From positions 1-64,000 of the forward strand of contig JAIMKP010000011.1 in assembly GCA_020692355.1 (NCBI GenBank): a stretch of DNA of 64,000 nucleotides. Reading direction: 5' to 3'. Origin of the DNA: Desulfosporosinus sp. GTDB taxonomy: Bacteria; Bacillota; Desulfitobacteriia; Desulfitobacteriales; Desulfitobacteriaceae. Made by a program: the position numbers and the translations under genes. The notes beneath the pieces are model-generated. The model saw nothing but the letters and a program-made list of their open reading frames with translations. It did no database searches and was not told the DNA's origin. This document shows, in pieces, positions 9,095-49,167 of the stretch; within the stretch, counting starts at the first letter, position 1; each line of letters starts with the position of its first letter.

Positions 9095-9149
9095 GTAGAC
9101 AGAAAGTAGACAGAAAGTAGACAGAAAGTAGACAGAAAGTAGACAGAAA
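9095..9149 (+). repeat. 11-bp tandem repeat, five units
   Basis: The unit GTAGACAGAAA is repeated five times exactly, ending against the REP-like core GAACCGTCCCC at 9151. The GTAGACAG part equals the left side of the REP-like motif seen elsewhere, so this looks like slippage of one motif half. The rest of 9080-9373 holds no gene I can support. Confidence 0.9.
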
Positions 9150-10910: not shown

Positions 10911-10959
10911 GGCCTATGGCCTATGGCCTGTTGCCTGTTGCCTGTTGCCTGTTGCCTGC
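10911..10959 (+). repeat. Heptanucleotide tandem array (GGCCTAT / TGCCTGT)
   Basis: Seven 7-base units occur in a row: GGCCTAT twice, GGCCTGT, TGCCTGT three times, TGCCTGC. It stands upstream of cheR in the 499-base gene-free stretch 10881-11379. Confidence 0.9.
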
Positions 10960-11041: not shown

Positions 11042-11076
11042 GAAGTCGGAAGTCGGAAGTCGGAAGTCGGAAGTCG
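11042..11076 (+). repeat. Heptanucleotide tandem array (GAAGTCG x5)
   Basis: Five exact copies of GAAGTCG are followed by GATGC. Related CAGAAGC units follow at 11147-11163, and CAGAAGTCGGATG recurs near 11256. The stretch 11130-11370 also holds two diverged copies of a roughly 110-base segment (CTTCGAAGGTTTGCTTGA and CTTCGACGGTTTACTTGA). No gene is seen here. Confidence 0.9.
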
Positions 11077-11379
11077 GATGCTAACGAGGGGCGCCGAAGG
11101 GTGGGTTAAGATGCCAAGGGGAAACGGGGTCAGACCTTACTAATTTCAGAAGCCAGAAGCCAGATATTTATGTTGGGCTTCGAAGGTTTGCTTGAGCAAT
11201 TCTCCAGAGCAGGGAATGCGCCACTAGCAACCTAAGAGAACCCTAAATTCAGAGGTCAGAAGTCGGATGCCACAGGTCGGATGTTCAAACGAGGCTTCGA
11301 CGGTTTACTTGAACGAATCTTCAAAGTAGGGGATGGGCAGCGGCTAACCCGCTGAACATCCCGACCCCAGACCGTTTCC

Positions 11380-11892: not shown

Positions 11893-12960
11893 TCAGCGTC
11901 CTAAATTCAGCGTCGCCTCATAAACGACCTCACTGGCGAGCTGAATCTGATCCTTGTTGACGAAGTCAGGCACGTCCTTGACCGTGTGATTATTTTCCAG
12001 CCAGGCTCTCGCCATCAAGGTGGCTGCCGGAATGCCGACTTGAGCAAAACTGATCTGATCACTGTTGTGCACACCGCCAGGAACCAGCGGTGCACTCGCT
12101 CCCTGGGTCTTCGCCGCAGCCTGCAGGGCCTTGACGACCGCATTGTTATCATATGCCCAGAGCGCAAAATCTCCCTTTTGACCATTGCCGACGGTATCCA
12201 CATTCAGTACGGCCTTGATATCCACCAAAGGAAGCGGCGGGTTTTGGACGAAGGCCTTTGAGCCCAAGAAACCCATCTCTTCCCCACTCCAAAAGGCGAC
12301 CAGGAGGGTACGCTTCGGAGGGACTTCAGCTTGGAGCAAGCGGCGCAGCACTCGCATGACACAGGCGACCCCGGAGGCGTTATCGTTCGCACCCGGATAG
12401 CGTTCGCCCTCGAAGAGGCCAAGATGATCATAATGGGCCGAAAGGAGCATGATCTCATCCCCCCGCTCACCCGGAAGAAATCCCAAAAGGTTGGCACTGG
12501 GCGCACGGAGCCCTTCTCCCGCCGCCGCACCGGCTTGAAAGGTCAGACGTCCTCCCACTCGTCGCTCTGTCATCGGCGGTAGGGTAAAGGCCTGGATATA
12601 GGAGGCTCCGGTGACAGGTTTGAGCCCCAATTCCCGCATTTCAGCCATGAGATACTGAGCGGCTTTGGCCTCACCGGCGGTTCCCGCTTTACGGCCCTCA
12701 CACTGTGGACTCGCGAGAGCGGCTATGTCGCGCGCGAGCTCGACATGGGCAGCAGAACTTGAACCGGCTGTCGGATGAGCAGCCAGGCCCGAATCGGCTG
12801 TTGGATTAGCGAGCGGAGGCTCGTGCTGCGTCAGATGTACTTTGGCCTCGACTGACCAGGCTGCTAACATCGCTTCCCAATGTTTCGGCCAATGAGTCCA
12901 CGGGAGGAAAAATGCTGAGGCAGCAACCATAGTTTTTAAAAATGTTCTCCGGGTTGACAT
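11893..12960 (-). CDS. Tat-exported M28 family metallopeptidase
   Basis: A zinc aminopeptidase-like protein of 355 residues. The N terminus STRRTFLKTMVAASAFFLPW is a twin-arginine (Tat) signal. The M28 metal ligands are all visible: H in SAHYDHLG, D in GANDNASG, EE in SGEEMGFLGS, D in LNVDTVGN, and a late H in GGVHNSDQIS. A spacer at about residues 48-72 has an imperfect internal repeat (NPTADSG / HPTAGSS) that the DNA also repeats. GAGGTG lies nine bases before ATG 12960. It sits between motB and yaaR, an unusual neighbour for motility genes; its substrate is unknown. Confidence 0.85.
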   Translation of the reverse strand: MSTRRTFLKTMVAASAFFLPWTHWPKHWEAMLAAWSVEAKVHLTQHEPPLANPTADSGLAAHPTAGSSSAAHVELARDIAALASPQCEGRKAGTAGEAKAAQYLMAEMRELGLKPVTGASYIQAFTLPPMTERRVGGRLTFQAGAAAGEGLRAPSANLLGFLPGERGDEIMLLSAHYDHLGLFEGERYPGANDNASGVACVMRVLRRLLQAEVPPKRTLLVAFWSGEEMGFLGSKAFVQNPPLPLVDIKAVLNVDTVGNGQKGDFALWAYDNNAVVKALQAAAKTQGASAPLVPGGVHNSDQISFAQVGIPAATLMARAWLENNHTVKDVPDFVNKDQIQLASEVVYEATLNLGR

Positions 12961-15295: not shown

Positions 15296-15565
15296 ATGAA
15301 GATTGATGGAACATCGTTATCCCCCGTGGGTGCTGTTCAGGCGGCCACCAGGGTGAGTCAGGTGGAGAAGAAGCCGCCTGAGCTGGGGAAGGATAATCTG
15401 GCGGTATCGGACAAAGCCCAAGTGTATCAGGCTTTGCTCCAGAAAGTCAAAGAAGTGCCGGAGATTCGGGAAGATCGGGTGGCCGATCTCCAGGAGCGGA
15501 TTGCCAAAGGTCAGTTCAAAGTCGATGCCCAGGTTATTGCCGACAAAATGATTCGCGAGGGATAA
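15296..15565 (+). CDS. flgM: Anti-sigma-28 factor FlgM
   Basis: FlgM holds sigma-28 inactive until the hook-basal body is complete and it is exported. The 89-residue protein is intrinsically polar at its N terminus and has the C-terminal sigma-binding helix pattern: VPEIREDRVADLQERIAKGQ, then KVDAQVIADKMIRE. TTTGGAGTGAG precedes the ATG by about seven bases. flgN follows after three bases, so both are in one operon. Its partner sigma factor is encoded at the far end of this window (63604). Confidence 0.92.
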   Translation: MKIDGTSLSPVGAVQAATRVSQVEKKPPELGKDNLAVSDKAQVYQALLQKVKEVPEIREDRVADLQERIAKGQFKVDAQVIADKMIREG

Positions 15566-15568
15566 GCC

Positions 15569-16054
15569 ATGGAAGAAACACTCACCCGTTTAAATGAGAA
15601 CCTAGGCCGACAAGTGCAGCTCTACCGTACGCTGCATGAACTTGCTGGGCTGAAGAAAGAGGCACTGCTTCGTAGCAGCCTCCAGGAACTTGAGCAGATC
15701 ACGGCCCGAGAGGAACGCCTTCTGCTGGAAGCTGCTCGCTTAGAGAAAGAACGCCTGCTTTGGGCGGATGAAATCGGGCAGAAAATGGGAAAGGCGGCTG
15801 AGGAACTAACTCTGGCGGAACTCACTGAGCGATTTCCGGAACTTCAAGGGGTGCGTGCGGAACTCGATCAGGTTATCGGAGATTTGCAGAATGCCCATGA
15901 ACTCAATTCCCAGCTCATCGGCCAAGCCCTGGATGTCATCGACTTTACCGTGAGTATGGTCACGCGGCCGGACGATGCAACCTATGCCCATCCTAAACGC
16001 AACGGACAAAACCCGCCCCCCACGCGCATGCACCTGTTTGACAAAATGATCTAG
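15569..16054 (+). CDS. flgN: Flagellar chaperone FlgN
   Basis: FlgN is the export chaperone for the hook-filament junction proteins FlgK and FlgL, whose genes lie about 7.5 kb downstream. The 161-residue protein is almost all helical, with long heptad-rich stretches (LTRLNENLGRQVQLYRTLHE, then EERLLLEAARLEKERLLWAD). The ribosome site lies in the end of flgM. In related genomes flgN is directly followed by flgK; here two glycosyltransferase genes are placed between them. Confidence 0.88.
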   Translation: MEETLTRLNENLGRQVQLYRTLHELAGLKKEALLRSSLQELEQITAREERLLLEAARLEKERLLWADEIGQKMGKAAEELTLAELTERFPELQGVRAELDQVIGDLQNAHELNSQLIGQALDVIDFTVSMVTRPDDATYAHPKRNGQNPPPTRMHLFDKMI

Positions 16055-16085: not shown

Positions 16086-16110
16086 AGACAAGAGAACCGT
16101 CCGTGCGTCT
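16086..16110 (+). repeat. REP-like motif, occurrence 2 (degenerate)
   Basis: AGACAAGAGAACCGTCC is followed by GTGCGTCT. The core is shortened but the outer AGAC/GTCT inverted repeat remains. It lies between flgN and its terminator. Confidence 0.55.
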
Positions 16111-16129
16111 TTCCCACGTCTTTGACAAA

Positions 16130-16161
16130 AAAACCCCTTCCAAATTCGTGGGAGGGGTTTT
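16130..16161. terminator. Intrinsic terminator after flgM-flgN
   Basis: AAAACCCCTTCC pairs with GGGAGGGGTTTT with an eight-base loop; A-run before and T-run after allow either direction. It separates flgMN from the AT-rich glycosyltransferase gene. Confidence 0.85.
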
Positions 16162-16313
16162 GATGATTCAAGATTCGTTTCTATAACAGATCGGGTAAGA
16201 CGGATGCGCCTCGATGGAGATTTGGAGAGGAGATGGATAAAGGACAAAACGGTTAAACTCGAGGAGAGATTTCAGCAGCAGTATAATCTCAAAGAATAGG
16301 AGGACCCGAATTG

Positions 16314-19300
16314 ATGAAGACCAGCATCGTTATTTTAACGTCTAATAAACTTGGCTATACTCAACAGTGTATCGAAAGTATTCGCAAATACACGGAACCC
16401 AATTCTTATGAGCTAATAGTTGTAGATGATCATTCTAAGGATGGGACTGTGGAATGGTTAAAAGAACAGGATGATATTATTACACTTTTTAGTGAGCAAA
16501 ATGCAACTTTTCCTAGGGGGTATAATCAGGGAATCAAAATTGCATTGGGCGAAAACATTTTACTTTTAAACAATGATACTGTCGTAACAGTTAACTGGTT
16601 AGACAATTTGCTAAAGTGTCTTTATAGTAGCGCTGATATAGGTTTAGTAGGCCCTGTCACAAATAGTTGCTCTTATTATCAAGCTATTAGAACGGATTAT
16701 AGAGACCTGGGTGAGATGAACGAATTTGCATCTAAATATAATTGTTCCAATCCCTTGCTTTGGGAAGAAAGACTGAAATTAGTTGGTTTTTGCGTGTTAA
16801 TTAAAAGAGAAGTCATTAAACAGATTGCACTCTTCGATGAGACCTTTTCACTAGCTGATTTTGGAGATGATGATTATTCTTACAGAGCAAGAAAAGCAGG
16901 TTTCCGATTAATGCTTTGCAAAGACACGTTTATACACCGTTTTGGGAGTATTTCCTCCAAGACAAATAATGAATATGCAAAATTAATCGCGGATAATACA
17001 ATGAAGTTTAAGCAAAAGTGGGGATTCGACGCTTCTTACTCAAGTGTTATACGAAATGAGATTATTGAACTAATGGATACTCCTAAAGACAATTTTATTA
17101 ACGTCCTTGACATAGGGTGTGCCTGTGGTGGAACATTACTAAAAATAAAACATCAATATAAAAATGTTGAACTCTATGGAATTGAACTTAACGAAAATGC
17201 TGCGGAGATTGCCAGTCAGTTTGCTACTGTTATTTCAGAAAACATTGAAACAAGCGAGCTTAGATATCCAGAAGTTTTTTTTGATTATATTATTTTTGCT
17301 GATGTTCTGGAACATTTAAATGATCCGTGGAAAATATTGCAAAAACTAAGCAAATATCTTAAATTAGATGGTAAAATATTAGCCAGCATTCCTAATGTGA
17401 TGCATTATACGGTTCTAAAAGACCTAATTAATGGAAAATGGAATTATGAAGATTCTGGTATTTTAGATAAAACTCACCTTCGGTTTTTTACTATGAGTAC
17501 TGCTAATCAAATGTTTCTGGATGCAGGTTACATTAATATTAAAGTGAATATTTTACCGAAAGCTGATGAAGAAGATCATAAATTTGTCGAAGAATTATGT
17601 CGGCTAAGTGATTCTGAGCAAATAACACAGTTCTTGGCATATCAATATTTGTTTAAAGCTTATAAAGCAACCAACCAGCCAAAAAAGATTTTGGATGATC
17701 CTATTTTGACGAAACCTTCAGAGGATTATCGTAGAAATATAAGCAGCGGTACAAAAACTAAAGGCGTGGACGTAGATTATGCTTACGCTAAACAAATGGT
17801 AGTTCTATCCCAAGAAAGAAAGGTGCAACCAAGCTTGTCAGTTAATGTTAAGCGGGATGCTAGGTTCATTTATCTAACGAGTGGGGCGCCTGAGCCTTTT
17901 TTAAATATAGACACCTCGATAATAGAAGCTTTTAATTGCTTGAATTTGGACTTTAAAATTTTCAATTTGAGACAATTTTCTTCAGATGTTAATGAATTTA
18001 TTAGTCTTATCAACAATTACAATCCGGACTTTATTTTAACAGTGTTTGGACAATTAATACCAGCTGATTACTTAAAAGTACTTACATCAATAAATAAATT
18101 GACTGTTTTATGGACCTTAGACGATCCTCATAATTTGGAATTAGCTCAACATTACGTACCACTTTTTGACCTAGTTTTTACGAATGACCTGAGTTGTTTA
18201 CCCATTTTCAAATATTTAGGGACCAAGGATGTACATGTGTTGTCGGGGGGAGCAGACATAAATAAATATCGCCCTCTCGTTCTCGAAGATAAGCAATATT
18301 CATCGGACATCTTATTAATAGGTAGTTCATTTGAGAAGCGTGTTCATTACATGAAGAGAATAATTGATGAGTTTGGTGACCGTGCGAAAATACTTATAGT
18401 TGGTCCCGGCTGGGGACAAAAACTTGGCAAAGTTTATTCCAGTAAAGTTGTAATATCGGAAACCTGGCTAAGCCCTGAGGAGACTGCTAAATACTATTCT
18501 AACACCAAAGTTAATTTAAATATCCATAGAGCTTCTGATGATACTTATTTGGTTCGTAATGTTGGTAATGTTCCGGTATGGGGTCCTAATCCACGTACTT
18601 TTGAAATCGCTGCTTGTAAATCGTTTCAACTTATAGATGCCTTAGAAGACTTGGGAAATTCATTTCGAATCGGTGAAGAAATTATTACATTTAATTCTTT
18701 GGATAATTTAGTGTCACGATTACATTATTATCTTGCAGAAGATGAGGAAAGAGAACAAATTGCTACAGCAGCATACAAAAAGGTATTAGGGCAGCATACT
18801 ATTGATCACCGTATTCAAAAAATGATCGAGATTCTTAGCGCTAAGTTATTTTTAAAAGAAGTAAATAACCCTAAACAGATACTGATGAAAGAGCCAAAAG
18901 TTTCGATAGTTATCCCTGTCTACAATAATGTAGAACTTACAAAACAATGCCTAGAATCGGTTTTTAAATATACTACCGAACTTGATTATGAGGTAATAGT
19001 AATTGATAACGGTTCTATCGATAATACGGAAAATTTTTTGAGTAGTTTGCAGGACCAAATAATAATTATTAGTAACGATACTAATTTAGGATTTGCAAAG
19101 GCTTGTAATCAAGGTGCAAATTTGGCTAAGGGTAAATATTTGCTCTTTTTAAATAATGATACTGTTTTAACTAAAGAATGGCTAATTAGGATGTTAGAGC
19201 CTATTGAAAACGATAATTCAATTGGTATTGTAGGGTGTAAGTTGCTTTATCCTAATAATAGTATACAGCATGCGGGAATTGGATTTACCGATATACACGG

Positions 19301-20942
19301 TAATTATGAGCCAGTTCATGTATATCAAGGATATTCCCGGTACTCGGAAAATGTAATGTTTTCTAAAGAAGTTCAAGCAGTTACTGGTGCATGTTTATTG
19401 ATAAAACATAATTTGTATTTTGATGTAGAGATGATGGATGAAGGATATGTAAATGGTCTTGAAGATATTGATTTATGCCTTAAGGTTAGAACTAAAGGTT
19501 ATAAGGTTTTTTATGAGTCTGCTGCTGAAGTGTATCATCTTGAATCTCAATCTGTCGGACGATTTAAATATGTATATGAAAATATTAATCTTTTTTTAAT
19601 AAAGTGGTCTCAGCTTGGATTAATTAAAATTGATACAGAGGAAATAAACGGTAAATTTTCCTGGATGAATAATAACACGGGTGTTTTTAAGTATGGCACT
19701 AATGTTAACAATTTAATTTTAATTGAAGAAAGAGTAAGCATTATAGTGTTAACTTTGAATAATTTGGATTATACAAAGCTTTGTATTGAATCAATAATCA
19801 ATAATACACACGGACAGTATGAATTAATCATCGTAGATAATGGCTCTACAGACGGGACTAAAGAATATTTTGAAGGAATCCAACAAGACTACCCAAATCT
19901 TCGCCTCATCTTTAATGATAAAAATGAAGGGTACGCTTATGCCTGTAATCAAGGAGCCGCATTGGGCACGGGCGAATATTTGGTGTTTTTAAATAATGAC
20001 GTTATTGTTCCACCTAATTGGTTGTCCGCTTTGTTAAGCACGTTTGCCCCAGACCTAAGAATAGGAATAGTAGGGCCTTGTACCAATAATTGTGCTGGGC
20101 CACAAAAAGTTGAAGGAATTGAATATAAACTTGAAAATTATCTAGCATATGCTGAGAATTGGCAAAGGAAAAATAAGGGAAGGGTTACTGAGACCAGTAT
20201 GGTTATAGGTTTCTGTATGGCAGTTAGAAAAGGCGTTTTAGATATTATCGGTGGTTTCGATTCAGAATATGGGATCGGAAATTTCGAAGATAATGATTTT
20301 TGTTTACGGGCAAGGATAATTGGGTTCAAAATTGCAATTCGGCATGATGTTTTAATACATCATTTTGGCAGTAGAACCTTTATCAATGAAAAGATAGATT
20401 ATGAGGCTTTGATGGAAAAGAATAAATTGATTTTTGATACTAAATGGCAAAGCTTTAACGACAAGATAAGTGAAGATGAAAAACTCACCTGCATATATGT
20501 ACCCTTGGACTATAATGTCATGTTTAATCGGGAGGTTCCTCCTATAAAGATTAATATGCAAAATAGCAAGAGCATTTTAGCGATTCCAGATTGGGATGAT
20601 CAAGCTACATGGTACTCATTGATTGATAAATTTCTGCAATTATTAAAAATTGAGCCAGAGATTTGCATGGTACTCAGAGTAGATCCTCCGGCTGATGAGG
20701 AATTCCAATCTGTCCTGGAACACCTGGAGATTTTTATGCGGGATTTGGGGATTCAAGATATCCCCAATATCATTTTAGAAGGTACACATTTAAGTCCTTT
20801 CCAGCGTGGCGGCCTTTATACTGCTTGTGAGTATTTTGTAGATTTACCGCAGCAACGGGGCTTCCTCTATCGCCGTGCGGCTGTAGCCTGTGGGTGTAAA
20901 ATTATTACACTAGACAATATCGAAAAGGTCTTTGCTGGTTGA
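16314..20942 (+). CDS. Giant multidomain glycosyltransferase (GT2-methyltransferase-CgeB-GT2-GT2)
   Basis: A single 1542-residue protein with five recognisable parts. Residues 1-230 are a GT2 domain (SIVILTSNKLGYTQQCIESI, VVDDHSKDGT, LLNNDTVV). About 250-410 is a SAM methyltransferase (NVLDIGCACGGTL, then FADVLEHLNDPW). About 515-840 is a CgeB/DUF3880-like glycosyltransferase (LWTLDDPHN, VHVLSGGADINKYRP). About 860-1130 and 1139-1380 are two more GT2 domains (VIDNGSIDNTE, FLNNDTVLT; VDNGSTDGTKE, FLNNDVIVP). A tail of about 160 residues follows. AATAGGAGGA precedes ATG 16314 by nine bases. The gene is clearly AT-rich against its neighbours, suggesting transfer. Position between flgN and flgK suggests flagellin glycosylation. 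Confidence 0.85.
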   Translation: MKTSIVILTSNKLGYTQQCIESIRKYTEPNSYELIVVDDHSKDGTVEWLKEQDDIITLFSEQNATFPRGYNQGIKIALGENILLLNNDTVVTVNWLDNLLKCLYSSADIGLVGPVTNSCSYYQAIRTDYRDLGEMNEFASKYNCSNPLLWEERLKLVGFCVLIKREVIKQIALFDETFSLADFGDDDYSYRARKAGFRLMLCKDTFIHRFGSISSKTNNEYAKLIADNTMKFKQKWGFDASYSSVIRNEIIELMDTPKDNFINVLDIGCACGGTLLKIKHQYKNVELYGIELNENAAEIASQFATVISENIETSELRYPEVFFDYIIFADVLEHLNDPWKILQKLSKYLKLDGKILASIPNVMHYTVLKDLINGKWNYEDSGILDKTHLRFFTMSTANQMFLDAGYINIKVNILPKADEEDHKFVEELCRLSDSEQITQFLAYQYLFKAYKATNQPKKILDDPILTKPSEDYRRNISSGTKTKGVDVDYAYAKQMVVLSQERKVQPSLSVNVKRDARFIYLTSGAPEPFLNIDTSIIEAFNCLNLDFKIFNLRQFSSDVNEFISLINNYNPDFILTVFGQLIPADYLKVLTSINKLTVLWTLDDPHNLELAQHYVPLFDLVFTNDLSCLPIFKYLGTKDVHVLSGGADINKYRPLVLEDKQYSSDILLIGSSFEKRVHYMKRIIDEFGDRAKILIVGPGWGQKLGKVYSSKVVISETWLSPEETAKYYSNTKVNLNIHRASDDTYLVRNVGNVPVWGPNPRTFEIAACKSFQLIDALEDLGNSFRIGEEIITFNSLDNLVSRLHYYLAEDEEREQIATAAYKKVLGQHTIDHRIQKMIEILSAKLFLKEVNNPKQILMKEPKVSIVIPVYNNVELTKQCLESVFKYTTELDYEVIVIDNGSIDNTENFLSSLQDQIIIISNDTNLGFAKACNQGANLAKGKYLLFLNNDTVLTKEWLIRMLEPIENDNSIGIVGCKLLYPNNSIQHAGIGFTDIHGNYEPVHVYQGYSRYSENVMFSKEVQAVTGACLLIKHNLYFDVEMMDEGYVNGLEDIDLCLKVRTKGYKVFYESAAEVYHLESQSVGRFKYVYENINLFLIKWSQLGLIKIDTEEINGKFSWMNNNTGVFKYGTNVNNLILIEERVSIIVLTLNNLDYTKLCIESIINNTHGQYELIIVDNGSTDGTKEYFEGIQQDYPNLRLIFNDKNEGYAYACNQGAALGTGEYLVFLNNDVIVPPNWLSALLSTFAPDLRIGIVGPCTNNCAGPQKVEGIEYKLENYLAYAENWQRKNKGRVTETSMVIGFCMAVRKGVLDIIGGFDSEYGIGNFEDNDFCLRARIIGFKIAIRHDVLIHHFGSRTFINEKIDYEALMEKNKLIFDTKWQSFNDKISEDEKLTCIYVPLDYNVMFNREVPPIKINMQNSKSILAIPDWDDQATWYSLIDKFLQLLKIEPEICMVLRVDPPADEEFQSVLEHLEIFMRDLGIQDIPNIILEGTHLSPFQRGGLYTACEYFVDLPQQRGFLYRRAAVACGCKIITLDNIEKVFAG

Positions 20943-20982
20943 TAATGTTAGAAAGTCAGGCGAGAAATGGGAGGCAGAGCGA

Positions 20983-23571
20983 ATGAAACGAAACGCGCAA
21001 GAGCATGAATACTTGCGGGATCTATTGTATATTGAACGGCACAATGCTGCGACGGAGAAGCTTTTTAGCATAGACGAGGAAGTCTTGAACTTCTACCAAG
21101 GTGTGCAGGACTTCTTGGACGGGCCTCCTGGACTGTTGCCGCAGCCGGGATTTTCCATTTTGCCCGCAGACTGTGAGGCCGATGAGCGTTTTCGGGTATG
21201 GCGTGAACCGTTTTCCAGCCCAGTGGGGCATACCCCGATCCAGATCGCCGTCTTGACGGATGAAGGGGGTGTGCCGGAGGATCTTTCTGCATTGCTAGCA
21301 CAGAATGGGTTCCAGGTCACCGTCCTGGGGAAAGGGGAGCATTTCCTTGCGTTTGAGGGGGAGGAAGGGATGCAGATCGTGCGGCTGCGGGAAAACGACA
21401 GCCTGGAGCGAGCCATTCCCGCAGGGACGGATCTCGTCCTTTGTACGGCCTTGGGGCAAGTGGTCGAGGCTTTTGAACAGGAAAAAGGGAAGATCCTTTA
21501 TTGGGTTTCGGAATCCGATCGTTACCTCCAAGATGAGATTTTCCTTCAGGCTGTGCAGAAGTTGCCCATCTTCCTCGTAGGAAGGCCGGAGCGTGAACGG
21601 GAGGAGCGCGCGGGCCGGTTCGAAGGGTTGTTTCCCGGACGCCGGATCCATGGACTCTCTTCCCCCGCGGAATTTGCCGCGGAGCTGTCCTCTCTTGCCG
21701 CTCTCCCGCCGATCCCATGTGCTTCCCGGATCCAGGCACAGAAGCTCAGCATCTGCATGATTGTGAAAAATGAAGCGGAAAATTTAAGACGTTGCCTGCC
21801 GGAAGCCATGACGTTTGCCGATGAGATCATTGTCGTAGATACCGGTTCGGAGGATGATACGCGGGAAGTTGCCCGCGGTTTTGGGGCTAAGGTCTCCGAC
21901 ATGGTCTGGAGCGGCGATTTCGCTGCGGCGCGCAATGAGAGCCTGCGCCTGGCTACCGGAGAGTGGATCCTGGTGCTTGACGCGGATGAAGTGCTGGCGG
22001 TAGAAAAGGGGCTGGCCTTGAAGGGATTTATCCGACGGGCGCTGGGGCATGTGTATAAAGTCAGCATCTACAATATGGCGACCTTGGCTTACACCAGCCT
22101 GGTGAATCAGATGGTTAGGCTCTTCCGCAACGGACGGGGGTATCGTTATGAGGGGACGATCCACGAACAGCTCATGGGCGAGGAGTACCCTATTCTGAAT
22201 ATTTTTGAGAGTGAGTTGCTGATCTTTCACTATGGTTACCTGCCGGATCATGTGGATAAAAAGGAAAAACACGCGCGTAACCTGGAGATCCTGGAGAGTT
22301 ACCTGGCCAATAATCCGGAAGATCATTTTTACATCTTTAACTATGCGGTGGAGTTGATGGCCCAACAGCGCTGGGAAGAGGCCTTGCACTATTTTCAGGA
22401 TTCCTTTCGTCATTCGGGCGGTGTGCGCATGCACCATCCACTTCTGCTAAATTATATGGCAGCCTGCCTTATGACGCTTTCCCGTTTTTCAGAGGCGGAA
22501 CGGGTATTGAAGGATGCTGCGGCCGTCTACCCGCGCTATCCGGATTTTTATTATCTCTTGGGCGAAATCTATTTTGGACAGAAACGTTTCGCTGAGGCTA
22601 AGAAGGCATTGCATAAGGCCATGCAGGTCGGGGAAGCTTACGGGAAAACCACGAGTTATTATGGCCGGGGAAGCTTTTTGAACGTCTACTTCCTGGCCCG
22701 GATCGCCGAAGGCGAGGGGCGCTGGGCAGACGGTTTGGCCTTGCTTGAGCAGTGGATGCCGGAGTTCACGTTGCCCCAGGGAAAGCACCTTTGGGCTGAT
22801 TGGGCTGTCCAGTATTTGAGCGAAGCGGAGATCGGTGAACACCTGACCAGCAGATTTTGGCGTACGTCCATAAATCTGTACGAACTTTATTTCTTCCTGG
22901 TCGGGGCGTTTTTGAAACATTTCCGCCAGGAGGCCGCGGTGAAGCTCCTGGCTCAAATGCCGGAGACGCTCAAGTCATGGGATGTCTGGCATCTCTACCG
23001 GGGGTGGGTGGAATTTCGGGAGGAACGGTTTACTGCGGCCTGGGAGCAGTGGGGAGAAATCCAGGATGATTCAAACCAAAAAGTCGGGCTTGTGCTGGGT
23101 TTTGCGCATTGGGTAGAGGGTCGGCCGGAGATGGCCGATAGTTTGAACTCAAAGGTACGGGCCTTTTTTAGCGGGGAAAGACTCGATGAGGATGAGGGCG
23201 ATCTTCTTCTGCGGGAAGCCCTTCTTTACCGCAATGTGAACCTTGATGAGGTGGTCTGGGGGTATCCTCAGACGGAGGTCCTGGCAAAGATTTTTTTTGA
23301 ATTGAAACGTCCGGATTTGGAACTGCAGGCTCTCAGCCTTGGATTTGAGCGTGGCACACTGGAGGCGGAGGGATTTACCCGTTTAGGGGATCTGAGCGCG
23401 GAACAGGGATTTTGGGAAGAAGCAGAAAACTTTTGGCACGAGGGATTGAAGAAAAAGCCAACAGATTGGAGCCTTTATACCCGTCTTCTGAGCCAGTATC
23501 AGCACTTTGGGGAGAAAGAAAAAAGCAATGAACTGGTGCGAAGGCGCAGGGAAGTTTTTTTTCGCAGCTAA
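20983..23571 (+). CDS. GT2 glycosyltransferase with TPR repeats
   Basis: The 862-residue protein has an N-terminal region of unclear type (1-250), a GT2 domain at about 255-470 (KLSICMIVKNEAENLRRCLP, VVDTGSEDDTREVA, VLDADEVL with the metal-binding DAD), then tetratricopeptide repeats to the C terminus (for example YPDFYYLLGEIYFGQKRFAE). The GT2-TPR layout resembles SunS-like and flagellin O-glycosylating enzymes. ATG 20983 is chosen because TGGGAGG lies eight bases before it; a TTG at 20932 overlaps the previous gene. Base composition returns to that of the host here, unlike the AT-rich gene before it. Confidence 0.85.
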   Translation: MKRNAQEHEYLRDLLYIERHNAATEKLFSIDEEVLNFYQGVQDFLDGPPGLLPQPGFSILPADCEADERFRVWREPFSSPVGHTPIQIAVLTDEGGVPEDLSALLAQNGFQVTVLGKGEHFLAFEGEEGMQIVRLRENDSLERAIPAGTDLVLCTALGQVVEAFEQEKGKILYWVSESDRYLQDEIFLQAVQKLPIFLVGRPEREREERAGRFEGLFPGRRIHGLSSPAEFAAELSSLAALPPIPCASRIQAQKLSICMIVKNEAENLRRCLPEAMTFADEIIVVDTGSEDDTREVARGFGAKVSDMVWSGDFAAARNESLRLATGEWILVLDADEVLAVEKGLALKGFIRRALGHVYKVSIYNMATLAYTSLVNQMVRLFRNGRGYRYEGTIHEQLMGEEYPILNIFESELLIFHYGYLPDHVDKKEKHARNLEILESYLANNPEDHFYIFNYAVELMAQQRWEEALHYFQDSFRHSGGVRMHHPLLLNYMAACLMTLSRFSEAERVLKDAAAVYPRYPDFYYLLGEIYFGQKRFAEAKKALHKAMQVGEAYGKTTSYYGRGSFLNVYFLARIAEGEGRWADGLALLEQWMPEFTLPQGKHLWADWAVQYLSEAEIGEHLTSRFWRTSINLYELYFFLVGAFLKHFRQEAAVKLLAQMPETLKSWDVWHLYRGWVEFREERFTAAWEQWGEIQDDSNQKVGLVLGFAHWVEGRPEMADSLNSKVRAFFSGERLDEDEGDLLLREALLYRNVNLDEVVWGYPQTEVLAKIFFELKRPDLELQALSLGFERGTLEAEGFTRLGDLSAEQGFWEEAENFWHEGLKKKPTDWSLYTRLLSQYQHFGEKEKSNELVRRRREVFFRS

Positions 23572-23648: not shown

Positions 23649-25136
23649 ATGCCTTCGACATTTTTTGGTCTTGAACTGGGCCGTCGGGCTTTGATGGCTC
23701 AGCAGATGGCCCTCGATGTAACAGGACATAATATCAGCAATGCCAGTACGGAGGGCTATACTCGGCAAGTGGCGAATTTGGCTGCGCCTCAGCCTTATTC
23801 CGTTTGGAACTTTGGGCATGCTGTGACCCTGGGTGCCGGGGTGGACTTATCCTCCGTCACCCGTGCTAGGGATGCGTTTGTGGATATGCAATACCGGAAC
23901 CAGACGTCTCTTCAGGCTTACTGGACGGATCGTCAGGATGGGATGCAGAAAGTTCAGGGGGCGATGAACGAGCCTTCGGCCAATAGCTTGCACGGTGATA
24001 TGGATGCCTTTTGGGCTTCTTTTGGCGATCTGGCCAACAATCCCGAGAATGCTGGAGCGCGATCGGTGGTGACCGAACGCGCTTCGGCCTTAACGGAAGG
24101 GTTTCATCAAGTGGTGAACCAGCTCAACGGGATCAAACAGAGCTTTCAGGATGCAGCCAAGGTCAGTGTGGATCAGGTGAACGTGACCGCTAAACAGATT
24201 GCGGAACTCAATCAACAGATTCGAACTGCAGAAGTGAATGGAGACAACCCGAATGATCTGCGCGACCAGCGCGATTACTTAGTGGATCAACTTTCTAAGT
24301 ATTTCAATGTTATGGTGAGCGAAAGCAAGGATCCGAACTTCACCGATCGCAGTGTGAATATCTACAACGTCATGGTGGGACAGCACGCGCTGATCAATGA
24401 TACGATTGCGGATAGCCTGCAAGCACCGGACTTCAGCACATCCCCTCCGACGCTGAACTGGAGCAACGGGATTCCTGTCCAGGCGGGAGATGGCAACAAT
24501 GGGAATGTGGGCAGTGTCAAGGCCAGCTTTGATATGTTGAGTTACCTCTCGACCTTGAAAGTAAAATATGACTCTTTGGCTCAAGGGATCGTCGATGCAG
24601 TCAACGTCATCCACCAGCAGGGGTATGATTTAAATGGCAATCCGGGGGTAGCCTTCTTCACCTACACCGCCGGAGATGCTGCGGCGACGATGGACATTAC
24701 CTCAGCGCTGAAAGGCAACCCGAGTCTGATCGCGGCTGCCGGTACGGCTCCCTCGGGAGGGGGGAACACCGCCGCCGACGGGGCCAATGCGTTGAAACTG
24801 GCCGCTTTTAAAGACGGGTTTAGCGGGATAGCGGTGGGGAGCGCTCCGTTTGATACGCCGACATTTACCCAAGCCTCCTCATTTTCTGACTATTATGGCG
24901 CGACGGTGGCGGGTGTCGGGGTGGACGGGCAGGAGGCCGACCGCATGACAGCCAGCACCGCGGTTCTGGTGAATCACCTCTCCAACCAGAGACAGTCCCT
25001 TTCCGGGGTGTCTCTCGATGAGGAGATGACGAATTTGGTGCGCTTTCAAAAGAACTATGCTGCGGCGGCGCGGATGGTGACGATGATGGATGATATGTTG
25101 GATACCATTGTCAATCGCTTAGGCATGACACGATAG
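23649..25136 (+). CDS. flgK: Flagellar hook-filament junction protein FlgK
   Basis: FlgK (HAP1) joins hook to filament and is exported by the flagellar machinery. The 495-residue protein has the conserved N terminus STFFGLELGRRALMAQQMAL, then ISNASTEGYTRQVANL, and a C-terminal coiled coil ending VSLDEEMTNLVRFQKNYAAA. GTGAGGTGAGGGC precedes ATG 23649. It heads a sigma-28 dependent unit flgK-flgL-yviE-fliW-csrA, with only 12 bases to flgL. Confidence 0.95.
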   Translation: MPSTFFGLELGRRALMAQQMALDVTGHNISNASTEGYTRQVANLAAPQPYSVWNFGHAVTLGAGVDLSSVTRARDAFVDMQYRNQTSLQAYWTDRQDGMQKVQGAMNEPSANSLHGDMDAFWASFGDLANNPENAGARSVVTERASALTEGFHQVVNQLNGIKQSFQDAAKVSVDQVNVTAKQIAELNQQIRTAEVNGDNPNDLRDQRDYLVDQLSKYFNVMVSESKDPNFTDRSVNIYNVMVGQHALINDTIADSLQAPDFSTSPPTLNWSNGIPVQAGDGNNGNVGSVKASFDMLSYLSTLKVKYDSLAQGIVDAVNVIHQQGYDLNGNPGVAFFTYTAGDAAATMDITSALKGNPSLIAAAGTAPSGGGNTAADGANALKLAAFKDGFSGIAVGSAPFDTPTFTQASSFSDYYGATVAGVGVDGQEADRMTASTAVLVNHLSNQRQSLSGVSLDEEMTNLVRFQKNYAAAARMVTMMDDMLDTIVNRLGMTR

Positions 25137-27295: not shown

Positions 27296-28120
27296 ATGAT
27301 CATCAACACCAACATCTCAGCACTCAATGCGTACAACAACCTGACCAACACAAACAACTCCCTGCAAAAATCGTTGGAGAAACTCTCTTCAGGCTTCCGG
27401 ATCAACCGGGCTGCCGATGATGCCGCCGGACTGGCCATCTCGGAAACTATGCGGGCTCAGATCAAAGGCTTGAACCAAGCCCAGCGCAACTCCCAGGACG
27501 GGATCTCGCTCATCCAAACGGCTGAAGGTGGCTTAAACGAGATTCAAAGCATGCTGCAGCGGATGCGTGAGCTCACGGTGCAAGCTTCCAACGGGACATA
27601 CAGCGCCAGTGACATCGCTAACATTCAAGCGGAAATGAACCAATTAAGTTCGGAAATCGATCATATTTCGGGCACGAAGTTTAACGGAGTTTCTTTGTTA
27701 AACGACAGTAATCTTGTTACTGTACAAACCGGGGCCAACAGCACTGACCAGCTCGTTCTCAACATGTCCAACGTTCTTGCAACTACTTTAGCATTAAAAG
27801 TGGATGGTGCCGACATCCAACTCTCTGCAATCAGTTCGGCCAGCAATGTTGCCGTATTAGCTAACATTGATGCTGCTCTTTCAAAAGTTTCCGGCTCGCG
27901 TGCTTACCTCGGGGCCAACCAAAACCGCCTGGAGCACACGATCAACAATCTGACCACGACCTCCGAGAACCTGACTTCGGCAGAAGCGCGGATTCGCGAC
28001 GTGGATATGGCTAAAGAAATGTCCACCTTCACCCGCGATCAAATCCTTGCTCAGGCTGGCACGGCGATGCTTGCCCAGGCCAACCAACAACCCCAATCCG
28101 TGCTCAAATTGTTAGGCTAA
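27296..28120 (+). CDS. fliC: Flagellin
   Basis: This is the filament subunit, exported by the flagellar system. The 274-residue protein is of the short type, with conserved N-terminal ([40 protein letters not shown]) and C-terminal helices ([17 protein letters not shown]) and only a small central variable region (about 130-190) rich in S/T/N. Those Ser/Thr residues would be the likely sites for the proposed glycosylation. The leader contains a CsrA site. A strong terminator follows, so fliC is probably a single-gene transcript. Confidence 0.96.
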
Positions 28121-28446: not shown

Positions 28447-28842
28447 ATGAGTCTGGACCGTATATATCCTCTCTCCCCGCCTCAGGTACCGCAGGCTATC
28501 CAACTGAACCTGGCCGGGGATGAGCAAAAGGTGGTCTCGCCCGAAACGGGCCGCAAGGCCGTGAGCCGCCAGGATGAGACGGCGAAGAGCGGACAGGACG
28601 CTAAAGAACAGGAATTAAACAAGCAAGAGGTGGAAAAGCTCGCGGAGCGCCTGAATCGCGTCATGGGCCTGATTGAAAAACGCCTGCAATTCAAGGTGCA
28701 CGATAAGAGCAAGATGATTCAAGTCAAAGTGATCGACCAGCAAACCGGAGAAGTGATCGATGAGATCCCGCCCAAGCGCTTGCTGGATCTCATGAGTTCC
28801 TTTCAGAACGTAACCGGTTTGTTCGTGGACCACAAAGCCTAA
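28447..28842 (+). CDS. flaG: FlaG family flagellar protein
   Basis: The 131-residue protein ends in the FlaG domain (about 70-128: LNRVMGLIEKRLQFKVHDKS, then VKVIDQQTGEVIDEIPPKRL). FlaG (YvyC in Bacillus) is linked to filament length control; the mechanism is not settled. The N-terminal half is polar and probably disordered. CGAAGGGGGGC precedes ATG 28447. It starts the flaG-fliD-fliS-fliT run. A heptamer array separates it from fliD. Confidence 0.88.
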   Translation: MSLDRIYPLSPPQVPQAIQLNLAGDEQKVVSPETGRKAVSRQDETAKSGQDAKEQELNKQEVEKLAERLNRVMGLIEKRLQFKVHDKSKMIQVKVIDQQTGEVIDEIPPKRLLDLMSSFQNVTGLFVDHKA

Positions 28843-31298: not shown

Positions 31299-31373
31299 TA
31301 GAATTTCCTGACGGAGCCCGATAAGGGATATAAAAATGGATTCTGTTTAGAGAGAAAAATGGAGGAAGACAGC

Positions 31374-32507
31374 TTGAAAACATGGCTTGTCACCGGTGGA
31401 GCCGGTTTTATCGGAAGCAACTTTGTGAGATTCATGCTTCAAAACGTGGAGGTTCAGATCGTGAATCTGGACAAGCTGACTTATGCAGGTAATTTGGATT
31501 CCTTAACAGATGTCTTAGAACATCCTCGGTACACGTTTATCCATGGGGATATTGCTAATCGTGCTTTGGTGGGTGGTTTGTTAAAAAAGTATCAACCGCA
31601 AGCGGTGATCAATTTTGCGGCGGAATCCCATGTTGATCGGTCGATTGATGGGCCGGGAGAGTTTATCCAGACGAATATTGTGGGGACATTTAACCTGCTG
31701 GAAGCGGTGCGCAGTTATTGGAACGAGACGAAAGAGCGCCTGGAACATGGGAATGGTTCGAATGAGCCTCTGGAACATTCAAACGGCGCGACAGCCTACC
31801 TGGATGCAGAGCGTGCGGAAGGAGCCTTCAGGTTTTTGCACGTTTCCACAGATGAGGTCTATGGCTCTTTAGGCTCGACCGGATATTTTACCGAAGAGAC
31901 GCCCTATGCGCCCAATTCACCCTACTCGGCCTCCAAGGCGGCATCCGACCATCTGGTGCGCGCTTATTTCCATACCTATGGGGTACCCACCTTAACGACG
32001 AATTGCTCCAATAACTATGGGCCGTTTCAGTTTCCCGAGAAACTCATTCCTTTAATGATTTTGAATGCGTTAGACGGCAAGCCTTTACCGGTTTACGGGG
32101 ATGGACAGAACATCCGGGACTGGCTCTACGTTCTGGATCATTGCCGGGCCATCCAGACGTTGGTTGAGAAGGGGACGATCGGTGAAACGTACAACATCGG
32201 GGGAAATAACGAGAAAAGCAATCTGGAAGTGGTGTATACCCTCTGTGACCTGCTGGATGAACGCTCTCCACGGACGGACGGGGAGAGCTACCGACAGCAA
32301 ATCGTCTTTGTCAAAGATCGGCCGGGTCACGACCGACGCTACGCGATTGATTCTTCGAAACTGCAAAGGGCCTTAGGCTGGAAGCCTCAGGAGACGTTTG
32401 CGACCGGGCTTGGCCAAACGGTGGACTGGTATCTGGCGAACCGGGAGTGGTGCCGGAGAGTCAGTGATGGCAGTTACCGCCGGGAACGGCTGGGGCTGGG
32501 GGAGTAG
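31374..32507 (+). CDS. rfbB: dTDP-glucose 4,6-dehydratase
   Basis: RfbB (RmlB) makes dTDP-4-keto-6-deoxyglucose, the second step to dTDP-rhamnose. The SDR motifs are [15 protein letters not shown] at the start (NAD binding), [21 protein letters not shown], and [14 protein letters not shown] with the catalytic YxxxK. TTG 31374 is preferred because GGAGG lies nine bases upstream and the ATG at 31359 overlaps it. An extra hydrophilic stretch at about residues 118-147 ([17 protein letters not shown]) interrupts the fold before [10 protein letters not shown] and looks like inserted repeat DNA. Confidence 0.94.
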
Positions 32508-32613
32508 GGTTTGTTTCGTGGTTTTCTCTGGGGAAGAATGGTAAGAGTTGTTGGAAGGATGAAGAAAAAAGATTAGGGAGAGAAAAAGAGAGAAGAGAAT
32601 AAGAGGGGGAAGA

Positions 32614-33504
32614 ATGAAAAAGATAAAAAAAGGTATTATCTTGGCGGGGGGCTCGGGTACTCGGCTCTATCCGCTTACGCTGGCCGTGAGTAAGCAGCTC
32701 ATGCCTATCTACAACAAACCGATGATCTATTACCCGCTGACAACCTTGATGTTGGCAGGCATTACTGAGATCTTGGTGATCACAACTCCCCAGGATCAAG
32801 CGCTGTTCCAAGGGGTGCTGCAAGACGGCAGTCAGTGGGGGATCGATATCCAATATGCCATCCAGCCTCGACCGGAAGGGTTAGCGCAGGCTTTTATTAT
32901 CGGGCGGGAGTTCATCGGTACCGACCGTTGTGCTCTCATATTAGGCGACAATATCTTCTATGGACATAGTCTGACCGAGCATCTGGCACGGGCCGTGCAG
33001 CAGGAGAGCGGTGCGACGGTCTTTGCCTATTGGGTAAAGGATCCGGAGCGTTACGGGGTGGTTGAGTTCGACTCGACCGGACAGGCCATCCGCATCGAGG
33101 AAAAGCCCAAAGCGCCTCAATCCAATTACGCCCTGACCGGACTTTATTTTTATGATCAGCAAGTAGTGAATATTGCAGAGAATCTTAAGCCCTCAGCCCG
33201 AGGGGAACTGGAAATCACCGATGTGAATAAGGTGTACCTGGAACGCGGGCAATTGCGGGTGGAGATTTTGGGCCGCGGTTATGCCTGGCTCGATACAGGC
33301 ACGCATGAATCGCTCCTGCAGGCGTCGAATTTTATTCAGACGGTGGAAGAACGGCAGGGGTTGATGGTGGCCTGCCCGGAAGAAATCGCTTACCGCTGGG
33401 GATATATTAATGCTGAGCAGGTGCTGAGACTCGCCGAACCGCTCACCAAGAATAGTTATGGGCAGTACCTTTTGAATCTGGTCAGGGACGGTGCGCCGCG
33501 ATGA
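32614..33504 (+). CDS. rfbA: Glucose-1-phosphate thymidylyltransferase
   Basis: RfbA (RmlA) joins glucose-1-phosphate and dTTP, the first step of dTDP-rhamnose synthesis. The 296-residue protein begins with the nucleotidyl-transferase motif [20 protein letters not shown] and has [15 protein letters not shown] and [32 protein letters not shown] precedes ATG 32614. The upstream gap (32508-32613) is purine-rich and holds no gene. The stop overlaps the rfbC start by four bases. Confidence 0.96.
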
Positions 33505-34100
33505 AGATCAGCGAAACCAAGCTGCCCGGCGTGATGGTGATTGAGCCAAAGGTATTCGGGGATGTCCGGGGTTTCTTCATGGAGACCTGGAATCAAGCCC
33601 GTTATGCCGACATGGGACTGCCGATGAACTTCGTGCAGGATAATCTGTCGTTTTCACAACGCGGAGTGCTGCGGGGACTGCATTTTCAGAATCCCTATGC
33701 CCAGGGGAAATTGGTGTATGTTTTACAAGGCGAGGTTTTTGATGTCGCGGTGGATATTCAGGTGGGCTCGCCGACGTTTGGCCAGTGGACGGGAGTGAGG
33801 CTCTCCGGGGAGAACAAGCGTCAATTCTATATCCCGGAAGGGTTTGCCCACGGTTTTTGCGTGCTCAGTGAAACTGCCCTTTTCGCCTACAAGTGTACGG
33901 AATCCTATCAGCCCCAGGCGGAACAGGGTGTGATCTGGAATGATCCGGATCTGAAGATAGACTGGCCTGTCGAGCAGCCGCTTTTGTCGGAAAAGGATAA
34001 GGCGTATCCACGGTTGAAGGAGATCGAGAGAGGAAGATTGCCCCAATACACGGAGGGAAGAGTGCAAAATCGGAATGGTGCGCCCCAAGATGGAGGTTGA
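33501..34100 (+). CDS. rfbC: dTDP-4-dehydrorhamnose 3,5-epimerase
   Basis: RfbC (RmlC) epimerises the keto sugar at C3 and C5. The 199-residue cupin has [20 protein letters not shown], the active-site region [20 protein letters not shown] with the catalytic histidine, [20 protein letters not shown], and the late Tyr in [11 protein letters not shown]. It overlaps rfbA by four bases. The last 20 residues run past the usual end of the family. Confidence 0.95.
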
Positions 34101-34105
34101 TCTAG

Positions 34106-34554
34106 ATGGGACAAGATGAGATGCGGATTTTGTTAGCTGTTATGATCGGTGTCGGTTTGTTTTCCTTACTCTGGCTTTTGAAAAAGAAGCTTTACGGACG
34201 TTCAAGGAGTTTTTCGCTAATCTATCAAGAGAAGAGTATCATGGAAAAGTGTTGGTTACCAAAACATTAGCCTATCTTGCAGCGTCTTTCCAAGATGCAG
34301 TAGATTATTTAGATTTAAGTGTTAACGTTTCAGAGCAAGCGCAGGATATTGTGGGTCAGTGGATCAGCAAGTGTGTTAGGACCTTTGTTTATACCGTTTC
34401 TAACTTAGACACAGATAACCGTTTAAGTGCCTTGGAACAGTTTGATCAAATTCTGGAGGATGCGCGTGGTGTTTTTGAAGCTCATAAAATCTCAAACCTC
34501 TCTGGTGAGCGTTGGATTATGAATGTCACCGCTCACCAGTTCAAGGTATCCTAA
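34106..34554 (+). pseudogene. Frameshifted small membrane-anchored protein gene
   Basis: ATG 34106 opens a frame coding for an N terminus with one membrane helix (ILLAVMIGVGLFSLLWLL), ending at a TAG near 34266. The remaining sensible sequence is in another frame: it is open back to 34120 and reads LRTFKEFFANLSREEYHGKV, then TLAYLAASFQDAVDYLDLSV, through to 34554. The best joining point is the A-rich stretch GAAAAAGAAG near 34180-34190. So one gene of about 145 residues is broken by a one-base shift, by real mutation, slippage or sequencing error. No family recognised. It lies between rfbC and rfbD. Confidence 0.55.
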
Positions 34555-34608
34555 TATGATTGACACAATGGAAGAGAAGTATGCACTGGACGATAGGAGA
34601 CTGTGAGG

Positions 34609-35457
34609 ATGAAAATACTGATTACAGGCGGGCAAGGCCAGCTTGGCCGGGAAATGAGCCTTTTTTTGCAAGAAAAACGGGAGTATGCCGTCAATGCACC
34701 CGGACACGCGGAATTGGATATTTTGAACGCAGATGAAGTGACCACTCAGTTAAAAGCTTGGCATCCTGATGTTATCATCCATACCGCGGCGTATACGAAG
34801 GTGGATCAAGCGGAAGCGGAACCGGATGAAGCGTGGAGAGTCAATGCGTTGGGAAGCCGGAATATTGCGGTGGCTGCCGAAGAGGTGGGAGCAAGGTTTG
34901 TCTTCCTCTCTACGGACTATGTCTTCGATGGGAAAAAAGGCACCTCCTATGATGAATGGGATGGGCCAAATCCTGAGAGTGTATATGGGCGTTCAAAACT
35001 GGCTGGGGAAGAGTTGGTGCGGATGGTTTCCCGGCGCTTTTTTATTGTACGGACTTCCTGGGTGTATGGGCCGTATGGAGGAAATTTCGTCAAGACGATG
35101 TTAGGGCTAGCCCGGGCCGGGAAGGCAGTCAGAGTCGTTGCCGACCAAGTGGGATCACCGACCTATACCTATGATCTGGCAAGATTTCTGGAAAGGTTAC
35201 TGCGGACGGAGGCTTATGGGGTGTATCATGCGACAAACGCCGGTTTCTGTAGTTGGTACGAGTTTGCGCAGGCTATCTTTGAGGAGGCGGGTATCGCGGC
35301 TCATTTGGAGCCGTGTACAACGGAAGAGTTTCCACGACCGGCCAAACGGCCACAATATTCAGTGTTAGAACACAAGGCGATTCGTTTAAACGGGTGGGAG
35401 GATCTTCGGCCTTGGCGCGAGGGGTTGAGAGATTATCTGCGGAGAAGCAATTCTTAG
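34609..35457 (+). CDS. rfbD: dTDP-4-dehydrorhamnose reductase
   Basis: RfbD (RmlD) reduces the last intermediate to dTDP-L-rhamnose with NADPH. The 282-residue protein begins MKILITGGQGQLGREMS and has DVIIHTAAYTKVDQAEAEPD, FLSTDYVFDGKKG, and the catalytic YGRSKLAGEELV. ATG 34609 follows AGGAG by eight bases. With rfbB, rfbA and rfbC it completes the pathway, so this cluster alone can supply dTDP-rhamnose, probably for flagellin glycosylation or surface polysaccharide. Confidence 0.95.
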   Translation: MKILITGGQGQLGREMSLFLQEKREYAVNAPGHAELDILNADEVTTQLKAWHPDVIIHTAAYTKVDQAEAEPDEAWRVNALGSRNIAVAAEEVGARFVFLSTDYVFDGKKGTSYDEWDGPNPESVYGRSKLAGEELVRMVSRRFFIVRTSWVYGPYGGNFVKTMLGLARAGKAVRVVADQVGSPTYTYDLARFLERLLRTEAYGVYHATNAGFCSWYEFAQAIFEEAGIAAHLEPCTTEEFPRPAKRPQYSVLEHKAIRLNGWEDLRPWREGLRDYLRRSNS

Positions 35458-41277: not shown

Positions 41278-41363
41278 CTTCGAGTATTGAAACACAAAGC
41301 GAAAAATGCAAAATCCGAATATTTTGCAGCGGCGCTATTCCAAATTACCGCGGTTTTGGACCT

Positions 41364-41405
41364 CGAACCTCGAATATCGAATATCGAATATCGAATATCG
41401 AACAG
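41364..41405 (+). repeat. Heptanucleotide array (CGAATAT) between cheA and cheW
   Basis: Six 7-base units are present: CGAACCT, CGAATAT four times, CGAACAG. The array ends directly against the cheW ribosome site. Confidence 0.92.
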
Positions 41406-41416
41406 GGGGTATGGAT

Positions 41417-41863
41417 ATGGCGGAAGAACAGCTGGTGACATTTGGCCTGGGCACGGAAGAGTTTGGTGTGGACATCATGCGAGTACAGGAAATTATTCGG
41501 ATCCCGCCGATTACGCGGGTGCCGAAGGCTCCGGTGTATGTGGAGGGGGTCATCAATCTGCGTGGGAATGTGATCCCGGTGGTCAGCCTGCGCACGCGCT
41601 TTGGTATGGATAAGGTGGAGGAGACGGATCTCAGCCGGATCATTGTTTTGCAGGTACAAAAAAAGGTGTTTGGCATCCGGGTCGATGCCGTGACCGAGGT
41701 GCTGCGGCTGGATACGGCTGCGATTGAACCCCCGCCTCCGGTGGCTTTGGGGATGGATTCGCAGTTTATCCGCGGGGTAGGGAAAATCGGCGAGCGTTTA
41801 CTTATTCTCCTCGATTTGGATCATATCATGGGTGGGGAGACGAGTCATGAGTTCAGTGCCTAA
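41417..41863 (+). CDS. cheW: Chemotaxis coupling protein CheW
   Basis: CheW couples receptors to CheA. The 148-residue protein has the usual SH3-like fold pattern: LVTFGLGTEEFGVDIMRVQE, VEGVINLRGNVIPVVSLRTR and a C-terminal GVGKIGERLLILLDLDHIMG. ATG 41417 follows AGGGGG by seven bases. The open frame upstream to 41306 translates the CGAATAT array into repeated EYRIS/NIEYR-like peptide and is not taken as coding. The end overlaps cheB by 17 bases. Confidence 0.95.
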   Translation: MAEEQLVTFGLGTEEFGVDIMRVQEIIRIPPITRVPKAPVYVEGVINLRGNVIPVVSLRTRFGMDKVEETDLSRIIVLQVQKKVFGIRVDAVTEVLRLDTAAIEPPPPVALGMDSQFIRGVGKIGERLLILLDLDHIMGGETSHEFSA

Positions 41864-49091: not shown

Positions 49092-49167
49092 GGCTGAGGA
49101 GGGATAAAGGGATGCTGCCGTTGAGCGACAAACTACCGCTCAGCCCGTGGCGATGGGGGAGTTGCAC

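Follow-up and report, generated by a model that had tools for sequence, protein, structure and literature searches.

The stretch analysed here, called the window, is 64 kb of DNA from Desulfosporosinus sp. (GenBank assembly GCA_020692355.1, contig JAIMKP010000011.1, positions 1 to 64,000 of the forward strand), and all coordinates refer to it. We describe P0001, the product of the open reading frame (ORF) at 16314-20942, which joins glycosyltransferase (GT) and methyltransferase (MT) domains in one chain, and P0002, the product of the next gene, a family 2 glycosyltransferase with tetratricopeptide repeats (GT2-TPR). The gene order is flgM-flgN-P0001-P0002-flgK-flgL...flagellin, and both GT genes thus lie inside the flagellar cluster. 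The P0001 gene, defined by its ORF, Pfam matches and base composition, is divided as follows:

16314-20942, + strand, main gene, multidomain glycosyltransferase/methyltransferase P0001, AT-rich
16314-17033, + strand, GT2 domain a, residues 1-240, motifs NNDTV and GDDDY
17049-17663, + strand, S-adenosylmethionine (SAM) methyltransferase domain, residues ~246-450, matching Methyltransf_23/12/11
17844-18878, + strand, GT-B type domain PF13524 with weak DUF3880, residues ~511-855, from Pfam
18879-19673, + strand, GT2 domain b, residues ~856-1120, motifs NNDTV and EDIDL
19719-20468, + strand, GT2 domain c, residues ~1136-1385, motifs NNDVI and EDNDF, GT-A fold predicted
20469-20939, + strand, C-terminal domain, residues ~1386-1542, conserved, no Pfam family

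The P0001 reading frame runs from an ATG at 16314 to a stop codon at 20942 (1542 amino acids, zero internal stops), with AGGAGG about 10 nt 5' of the start codon. Its domain order is GT2, SAM methyltransferase, PF13524 (CgeB-like) GT, GT2, GT2 and C-terminal domain. In the Pfam search, PF00535 matched the three GT2 stretches (residues ~1-240, ~864-1090 and ~1140-1370; E=8e-83), Methyltransf_23 matched residues 252-409 (E=9e-17), PF13524 (Glyco_trans_1_2) matched residues 690-838 with 113.1 bits against a gathering cut-off of 25, and DUF3880 gave a weak match at residues 600-672; the label CgeB-like for the GT-B part rests on membership of the PF13524 family. The three GT2 domains share 32-36% mutual identity, and the NND and (E/G)D.D motifs are intact in all three. 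Pfam gave no TPR match in P0001, and the chain contains no other known flagellin-recognition module. P0001 makes no nucleotide sugar, the sugar-nucleotide genes being encoded separately.

A first-pass annotation of this DNA, made from the letters alone, had described a 1542-residue chain of five domains. The ORF was confirmed, as were, by Pfam, the five named domains, but a sixth had been missed. This additional conserved domain (residues ~1386-1542) has homologues that were recovered by a phylum-wide search, the strongest being in long chains at flagellin loci (L168, L170, L172-L176). In an AlphaFold model of moderate confidence (mean pLDDT, the predicted local distance difference test, 66.7 for GT2 c plus the C-terminal domain) strands and helices alternate as in a GT-B lobe. 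In a Foldseek search with this model, GT2 c matched GT-A enzymes, and the C-terminal domain had no match of its own.

The genes and features around P0001 are:

15296-15565, + strand, flgM, anti-sigma-28 factor (PF04316)
15569-16054, + strand, flgN, flagellar chaperone (PF05130)
16129-16162, + strand, hairpin after flgN, stem and T-rich stretch
20983-23571, + strand, P0002 gene, GT2-TPR with GmaR/SunS-type catalytic domain, proposed flagellin-priming transferase
23649-25136, + strand, flgK, hook-associated protein (PF22638)
27296-28120, + strand, flagellin, proposed substrate
31359-35457, + strand, rfbB, rfbA, rfbC and rfbD, dTDP-L-rhamnose pathway, proposed donor supply, host-like GC

The placement between flgN and flgK, the GT2-TPR gene directly after P0001 and the dTDP-rhamnose genes further on, all reported in the first-pass annotation, were confirmed. 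In the interval between flgM and the rfb genes, the two glycosyltransferase genes are the only non-flagellar ORFs, and no polymer exporter is recognisable there. Only one flagellin gene was found in the genome, with 11 Ser/Thr in its 49-residue variable centre, and a FlaG-like ORF starts at 28447. The strong hairpin 3' of flgN has a 13-bp stem followed by a T-rich stretch (-25.1 kcal/mol over a 61-nt stretch, z -4.3) and is a probable terminator parting flgMN from the main gene. Predicted sigma-70 promoters showed no excess over shuffled sequence (23 vs 20.7), and none was called between 16162 and 16314.

A short interspersed repeat, AGAACCGTCCCCGTGTC, occurs in the window at 16093, 44822, 49642 and 56716, with 16 genome-wide copies at no more than 2 mismatches; the reversed control gave 0. 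Immediately 5' of the P0001 gene, in the interval from flgN to the hairpin, there is a degraded copy.

The base composition changes sharply at P0001, as had been noticed earlier. The GC content is 33.9% within the gene and, on either side of it, 49.9% and 53.0%. Change points estimated by maximum likelihood fall at 16330 (support range 16110-16355) and 20800 (20645-20960) and match the ORF ends within their ranges. GC at third codon positions (GC3) is 0.29 in P0001 and 0.53-0.71 in the neighbours, the partner and rfb genes included. The low GC is confined to one gene and does not mark a multi-gene island. In the final ~90 codons GC rises to 44-46%; a native 3' end surviving gene replacement is not claimed, because the change-point range 20645-20960 includes the stop codon.

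The position is also unusual. Among pairs on one contig, flgN and flgK were separated by 8-170 bp in 73 of 76 cases, the exceptions being the window's own genome (G000, 7597 bp), G003 (13.6 kb) and G075 (2.4 kb); neither gene was present in the 83%-complete assembly of G001, from the same genus. The composition shift and the wide gap together indicate that a foreign gene, with a host-like partner, splits flgN from flgK. Horizontal acquisition of the P0001 gene, also proposed in the first-pass annotation, is thus supported by composition, which points to an AT-rich source, and by the unusual insertion. That it was recent, as the annotation further held, is plausible, but composition alone gives no date, because low GC recurs in comparable genes of several relatives (28-35% in G012, G026, G074 and G076). 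No transposase was recognised among the ORFs read in the window, and searches for flanking insertion repeats gave only short imperfect pairs (20 nt at 85%, 16155/20740), which were equalled by other regional pairs. A phage or plasmid origin is not supported, since none of 50,697 phage and 72,556 plasmid records covers 80% of P0001; the best plasmid matches reached a coverage of about 50-70% at an identity of about 30-36%.

In G003 (L058/L184), the flgN-flgK gap holds genes for flagellin, FliD and a 667-aa PF13524-like/methyltransferase protein, together with other flagellar and sugar genes. It is apparently an independent rearrangement of the same spot.

The foreign composition, down to the low GC3, and the break in an otherwise contiguous flgN-flgK pair could also mean that the gene was inserted recently and has little or no present function in its host. 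We regard this as highly improbable: the 4.6-kb frame is fully open, the GT2 catalytic motifs are kept, the ribosome site is good, and a matching partner and rhamnose genes stand in the same cluster.

The partner P0002 more likely starts at ATG 20983, with GGGAGG upstream, than at TTG 20932. Its catalytic domain matched the structure of the GmaR glycosyltransferase (E=2e-38) and that of SunS (5e-25), and TPR were found by Pfam. Its score against the NCBIfam SunS equivalog is 87, below the cut-off of 350, and P0002 is therefore not SunS itself. GmaR transfers N-acetylglucosamine (GlcNAc) onto Listeria flagellin, with the TPR proposed to recognise the flagellin (PMC9638930), and in Clostridium, GTs that have no TPR were considered improbable candidates for the enzyme that attaches sugar to flagellin (PMC13317340). 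Like P0002, GmaR of Listeria and SunS of the Bacillus phage SPbeta have a GT2 catalytic domain and a TPR or TPR-like tail, but they differ from it in lacking an N-terminal extension of ~250 residues.

GT2-TPR genes of the GmaR/SunS-like type also occur elsewhere in the genome, on a contig distinct from that of the flagellar locus (L085, G000:C31, 5965-16634), where a CgeB-like gene is followed by three of them in succession; the same arrangement is found in L084 (G001:C213). Matching sets of several GT2-TPR copies are repeatedly found among genomes of the family, in many of them. The CgeB-like and triple GT2-TPR cluster is possibly, at a guess, a spore-surface glycosylation cluster.

Relatives of P0001 were examined at 20 loci, which are among its best matches across the phylum and were chosen regardless of location. 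Filament genes lay within about 10 kb in 12 of the 20 (11/19 by genus, as G411 and G449 belong to one genus); the binomial p=4e-16 for this count assumes a 2% background and independence and is a guide only. All 12 filament-gene loci also contained a P0002-like GT2-TPR (Fisher p=7e-4), and at least two rfb genes were present in 7 of the 20 loci. Within the same family, order and class, the usual gene order was flagellin, P0002-like GT2-TPR and a GT2-MT protein of ~500-850 aa, as in G012, G026, G074 (where the GT2-MT gene lies a few genes further) and G076, while the pair followed csrA in G051.

Several long chains resembled P0001 in domain content. L168 and L170 (1718 and 1730 aa) are arranged MT-GT4-GT2-GT2-GT2-Cterm and L175 and L176 MT-GT2-GT4-GT2-Cterm, all at flagellin loci, and L172 is MT-GT2-GT2-GT2-Cterm. 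In L165 and L166, rfbA,C,B,D, a separate PF13524 GT and a single GT2-MT-GT2-TPR chain adjoin flagellin. In L035-L037, of which 2 of the 3 contigs are labelled Actinomycetota or Actinomycetes, a single chain of ~1700 aa has the order GT2-GT4-MT-GT2-TPR; it lies directly after flagellin in L036 and L037 and upstream of FlaG-FliD-FliS in L035. The first-pass annotation had pointed to a search for the same domain order elsewhere. Among the matches listed from 101 relatives and 398 phylum genomes, two sets that partly overlap, no chain other than the window's had the exact order GT2-MT-PF13524-GT2-GT2-Cterm; L168, L170, L175 and L176 are near-complete relatives in architecture.

The domains of P0001 had different best matches: L160, L161 and L163 for GT2 a (56-61%), L071/L072 for GT2 b (53-55%) and L165/L180 for the PF13524 domain (34%), of which a stand-alone homologue (34%) lies beside rfb genes and flagellin in L165/L166. 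Because they differ domain by domain, the chain seems to have been put together from modules that do not share one history, a judgement taken from best matches and not from a tree.

Comparable systems have been described in other bacteria. In Clostridium difficile type B, GT1 adds GlcNAc, two rhamnoses are added by GT2, a GT2 plus MT protein, and rml genes lie close by (PMC5207246). GT2 is also credited with methylating these rhamnoses, an assignment that was in part deduced from the presence of the MT domain (PMC5207246). This GT2 protein (CDR20291_0242) resembles P0001 in joining GT2 and methyltransferase, and the locus, likened here by description, resembles the window in having a partner GT, which in the window is the proposed primer P0002, and rmlABCD near flagellar genes. 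P0001 has in addition a second and a third GT2 domain, the PF13524 GT and the C-terminal domain, and its gene precedes that of the partner and sits between flgN and flgK, not after flagellin.

The Geobacillus flagellin glycosylation islands consist of 11-23 genes between flaA2 and flaG (PMC5109656). Like the window, they hold low-GC, horizontally acquired glycosylation genes in a flagellar cluster, including GT2, MT and, in type V, rhamnose genes (PMC5109656). The window shares GT genes in the cluster, low GC (in P0001 only) and the sugar-nucleotide genes rfbBACD. However, P0001 lies between flgN and flgK and not between flagellin and flaG, a single gene is AT-rich, and the rfb and GT2-TPR genes are host-like in composition. 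In the part of the enterobacterial island study available, GT-methyltransferase fusions and, in some islands, rhamnose genes are described as in the window, but the fusions are mostly GT41-MT with one GT2-MT, and that part contains no triple-GT2 chain (PMC4875605). ORF6 of Klebsiella O7 has, like P0001, a methyltransferase in one chain with GT modules, in its case two that are dTDP-rhamnose-dependent; unlike P0001, it is not flagellar but acts on a lipid-linked O-antigen, and it also contains a coiled-coil and a methyltransferase-kinase (PMC11231755). Low-GC flagellin glycosylation islands, GT-MT fusions and multimodule rhamnose polymerases are already known, and what is new is the domain combination of P0001 and its flgN-flgK position. 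No paper on a megachain class at flagellin loci was found in the open-access literature, which is not proof of absence.

Taken together, we consider it quite probable that P0001 is the horizontally acquired elongation-and-decoration enzyme of a cytoplasmic flagellin O-glycosylation pathway that P0002 primes. A role in flagellin glycosylation is supported, though not proven, by the location, the linkage to filament genes, the fusions with GT2-TPR and the linkage to rhamnose genes. P0002 would bind flagellin and, judging from its homology to GmaR, place the first sugar, probably GlcNAc, on Ser/Thr. The GT2 domains of P0001 would then elongate the chain with sugars that include L-rhamnose, for which rfbBACD would make the donor dTDP-rhamnose, since the rfb linkage is repeated and C. 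difficile type B offers a precedent. The PF13524 domain may add one further sugar, and the methyltransferase may methylate a sugar and perhaps cap the chain. The C-terminal domain might be a non-catalytic GT-B-like lobe, conceivably serving in docking.

The first-pass annotation had gone further and proposed an all-in-one flagellin glycan assembler, in which P0001 alone primes flagellin and builds the complete glycan. Its flagellin-glycosylation part agrees with our results, and four GT domains and one methyltransferase in a single chain, as well as the chains elsewhere that also contain GT2-TPR, speak for the rest. Nevertheless, all-in-one overstates the case and appears very unlikely, because P0001 is without TPR, the TPR/GmaR-type domain belongs here to the separate protein P0002, and nucleotide-sugar synthesis is encoded apart. 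Initiation is better assigned to P0002, given also that separate GmaR/SunS-type GT2-TPR proteins recur, and the best reading of the locus is a division in which P0002 would prime and P0001 would elongate and methylate.

Several observations weigh against a flagellar role. P0001-like GT2-MT genes occur in stretches without filament genes (L161, L162, L164, L167, L171 and L178), and the L071/L072 contigs, closest to GT2 b, carry rfb genes and no filament genes. The flgN-flgK position differs from that in relatives, where genes of this kind are usually found after flagellin. Contig C6 of the same genome carries a second rmlA homologue (46%), and rhamnose could therefore serve another polymer. Neither donor nor acceptor can be read from a GT2 sequence. 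P0001 might accordingly build another rhamnose-containing surface polymer (a cell-wall rhamnan, S-layer glycan or exopolysaccharide), its place in the flagellar locus being accidental, and MT-GT-GT multimodule rhamnose polymerases are indeed known in O-antigen synthesis, as in Klebsiella O7 ORF6 (PMC11231755). We consider this rather unlikely, as the relatives beside filament genes are always accompanied by a GmaR-type GT2-TPR, the fusion chains directly follow flagellin, and the surrounding ORFs are flagellar and include no recognisable exporter.

The flagellin-glycan assignment of P0001 touches on a wider possibility, which we put forward tentatively. There may be a widespread class of single-chain flagellin-glycan assemblers (MT, GT-B, two to three GT2 and the shared C-terminal domain) that work as a modular line, in which domain order and number would set glycan length, the MT would cap the chain and lineages would reshuffle modules up to fusion with GT2-TPR. 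Flagellin glycans influence motility and adhesion, and few have been solved in Gram-positive bacteria. If the proposal is true, module order (here three GT2, one GT-B and one MT) could predict glycan length and methyl capping, and the variants in distant lineages would be a natural series for testing such prediction.

Some other features of the window are recorded here. At 10926-10958, 11042-11078, 41370-41402 and 49672-49697 there are perfect tandem arrays of 7-bp units, whose sequences differ (GCCTGTT, GAAGTCG, TCGAATA and CGAACCA), and an 11-bp array lies at 9095. The array at 41370 is inside the 5' part of ORF 41306-41863, and that at 49672 is near the 3' end of ORF 49147-49713. A 9/18-bp repeat at 42334-42407 codes for a GTQGTQ... 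linker in a CheB-like protein (41832-43100). An M28 family peptidase gene (11893-12960) lies beside motAB, in the same place as in most relatives examined. The rfbB-like protein has an unusual insert of 34 residues, encoded at about 31600-31780, which looks like an in-frame repeat expansion.

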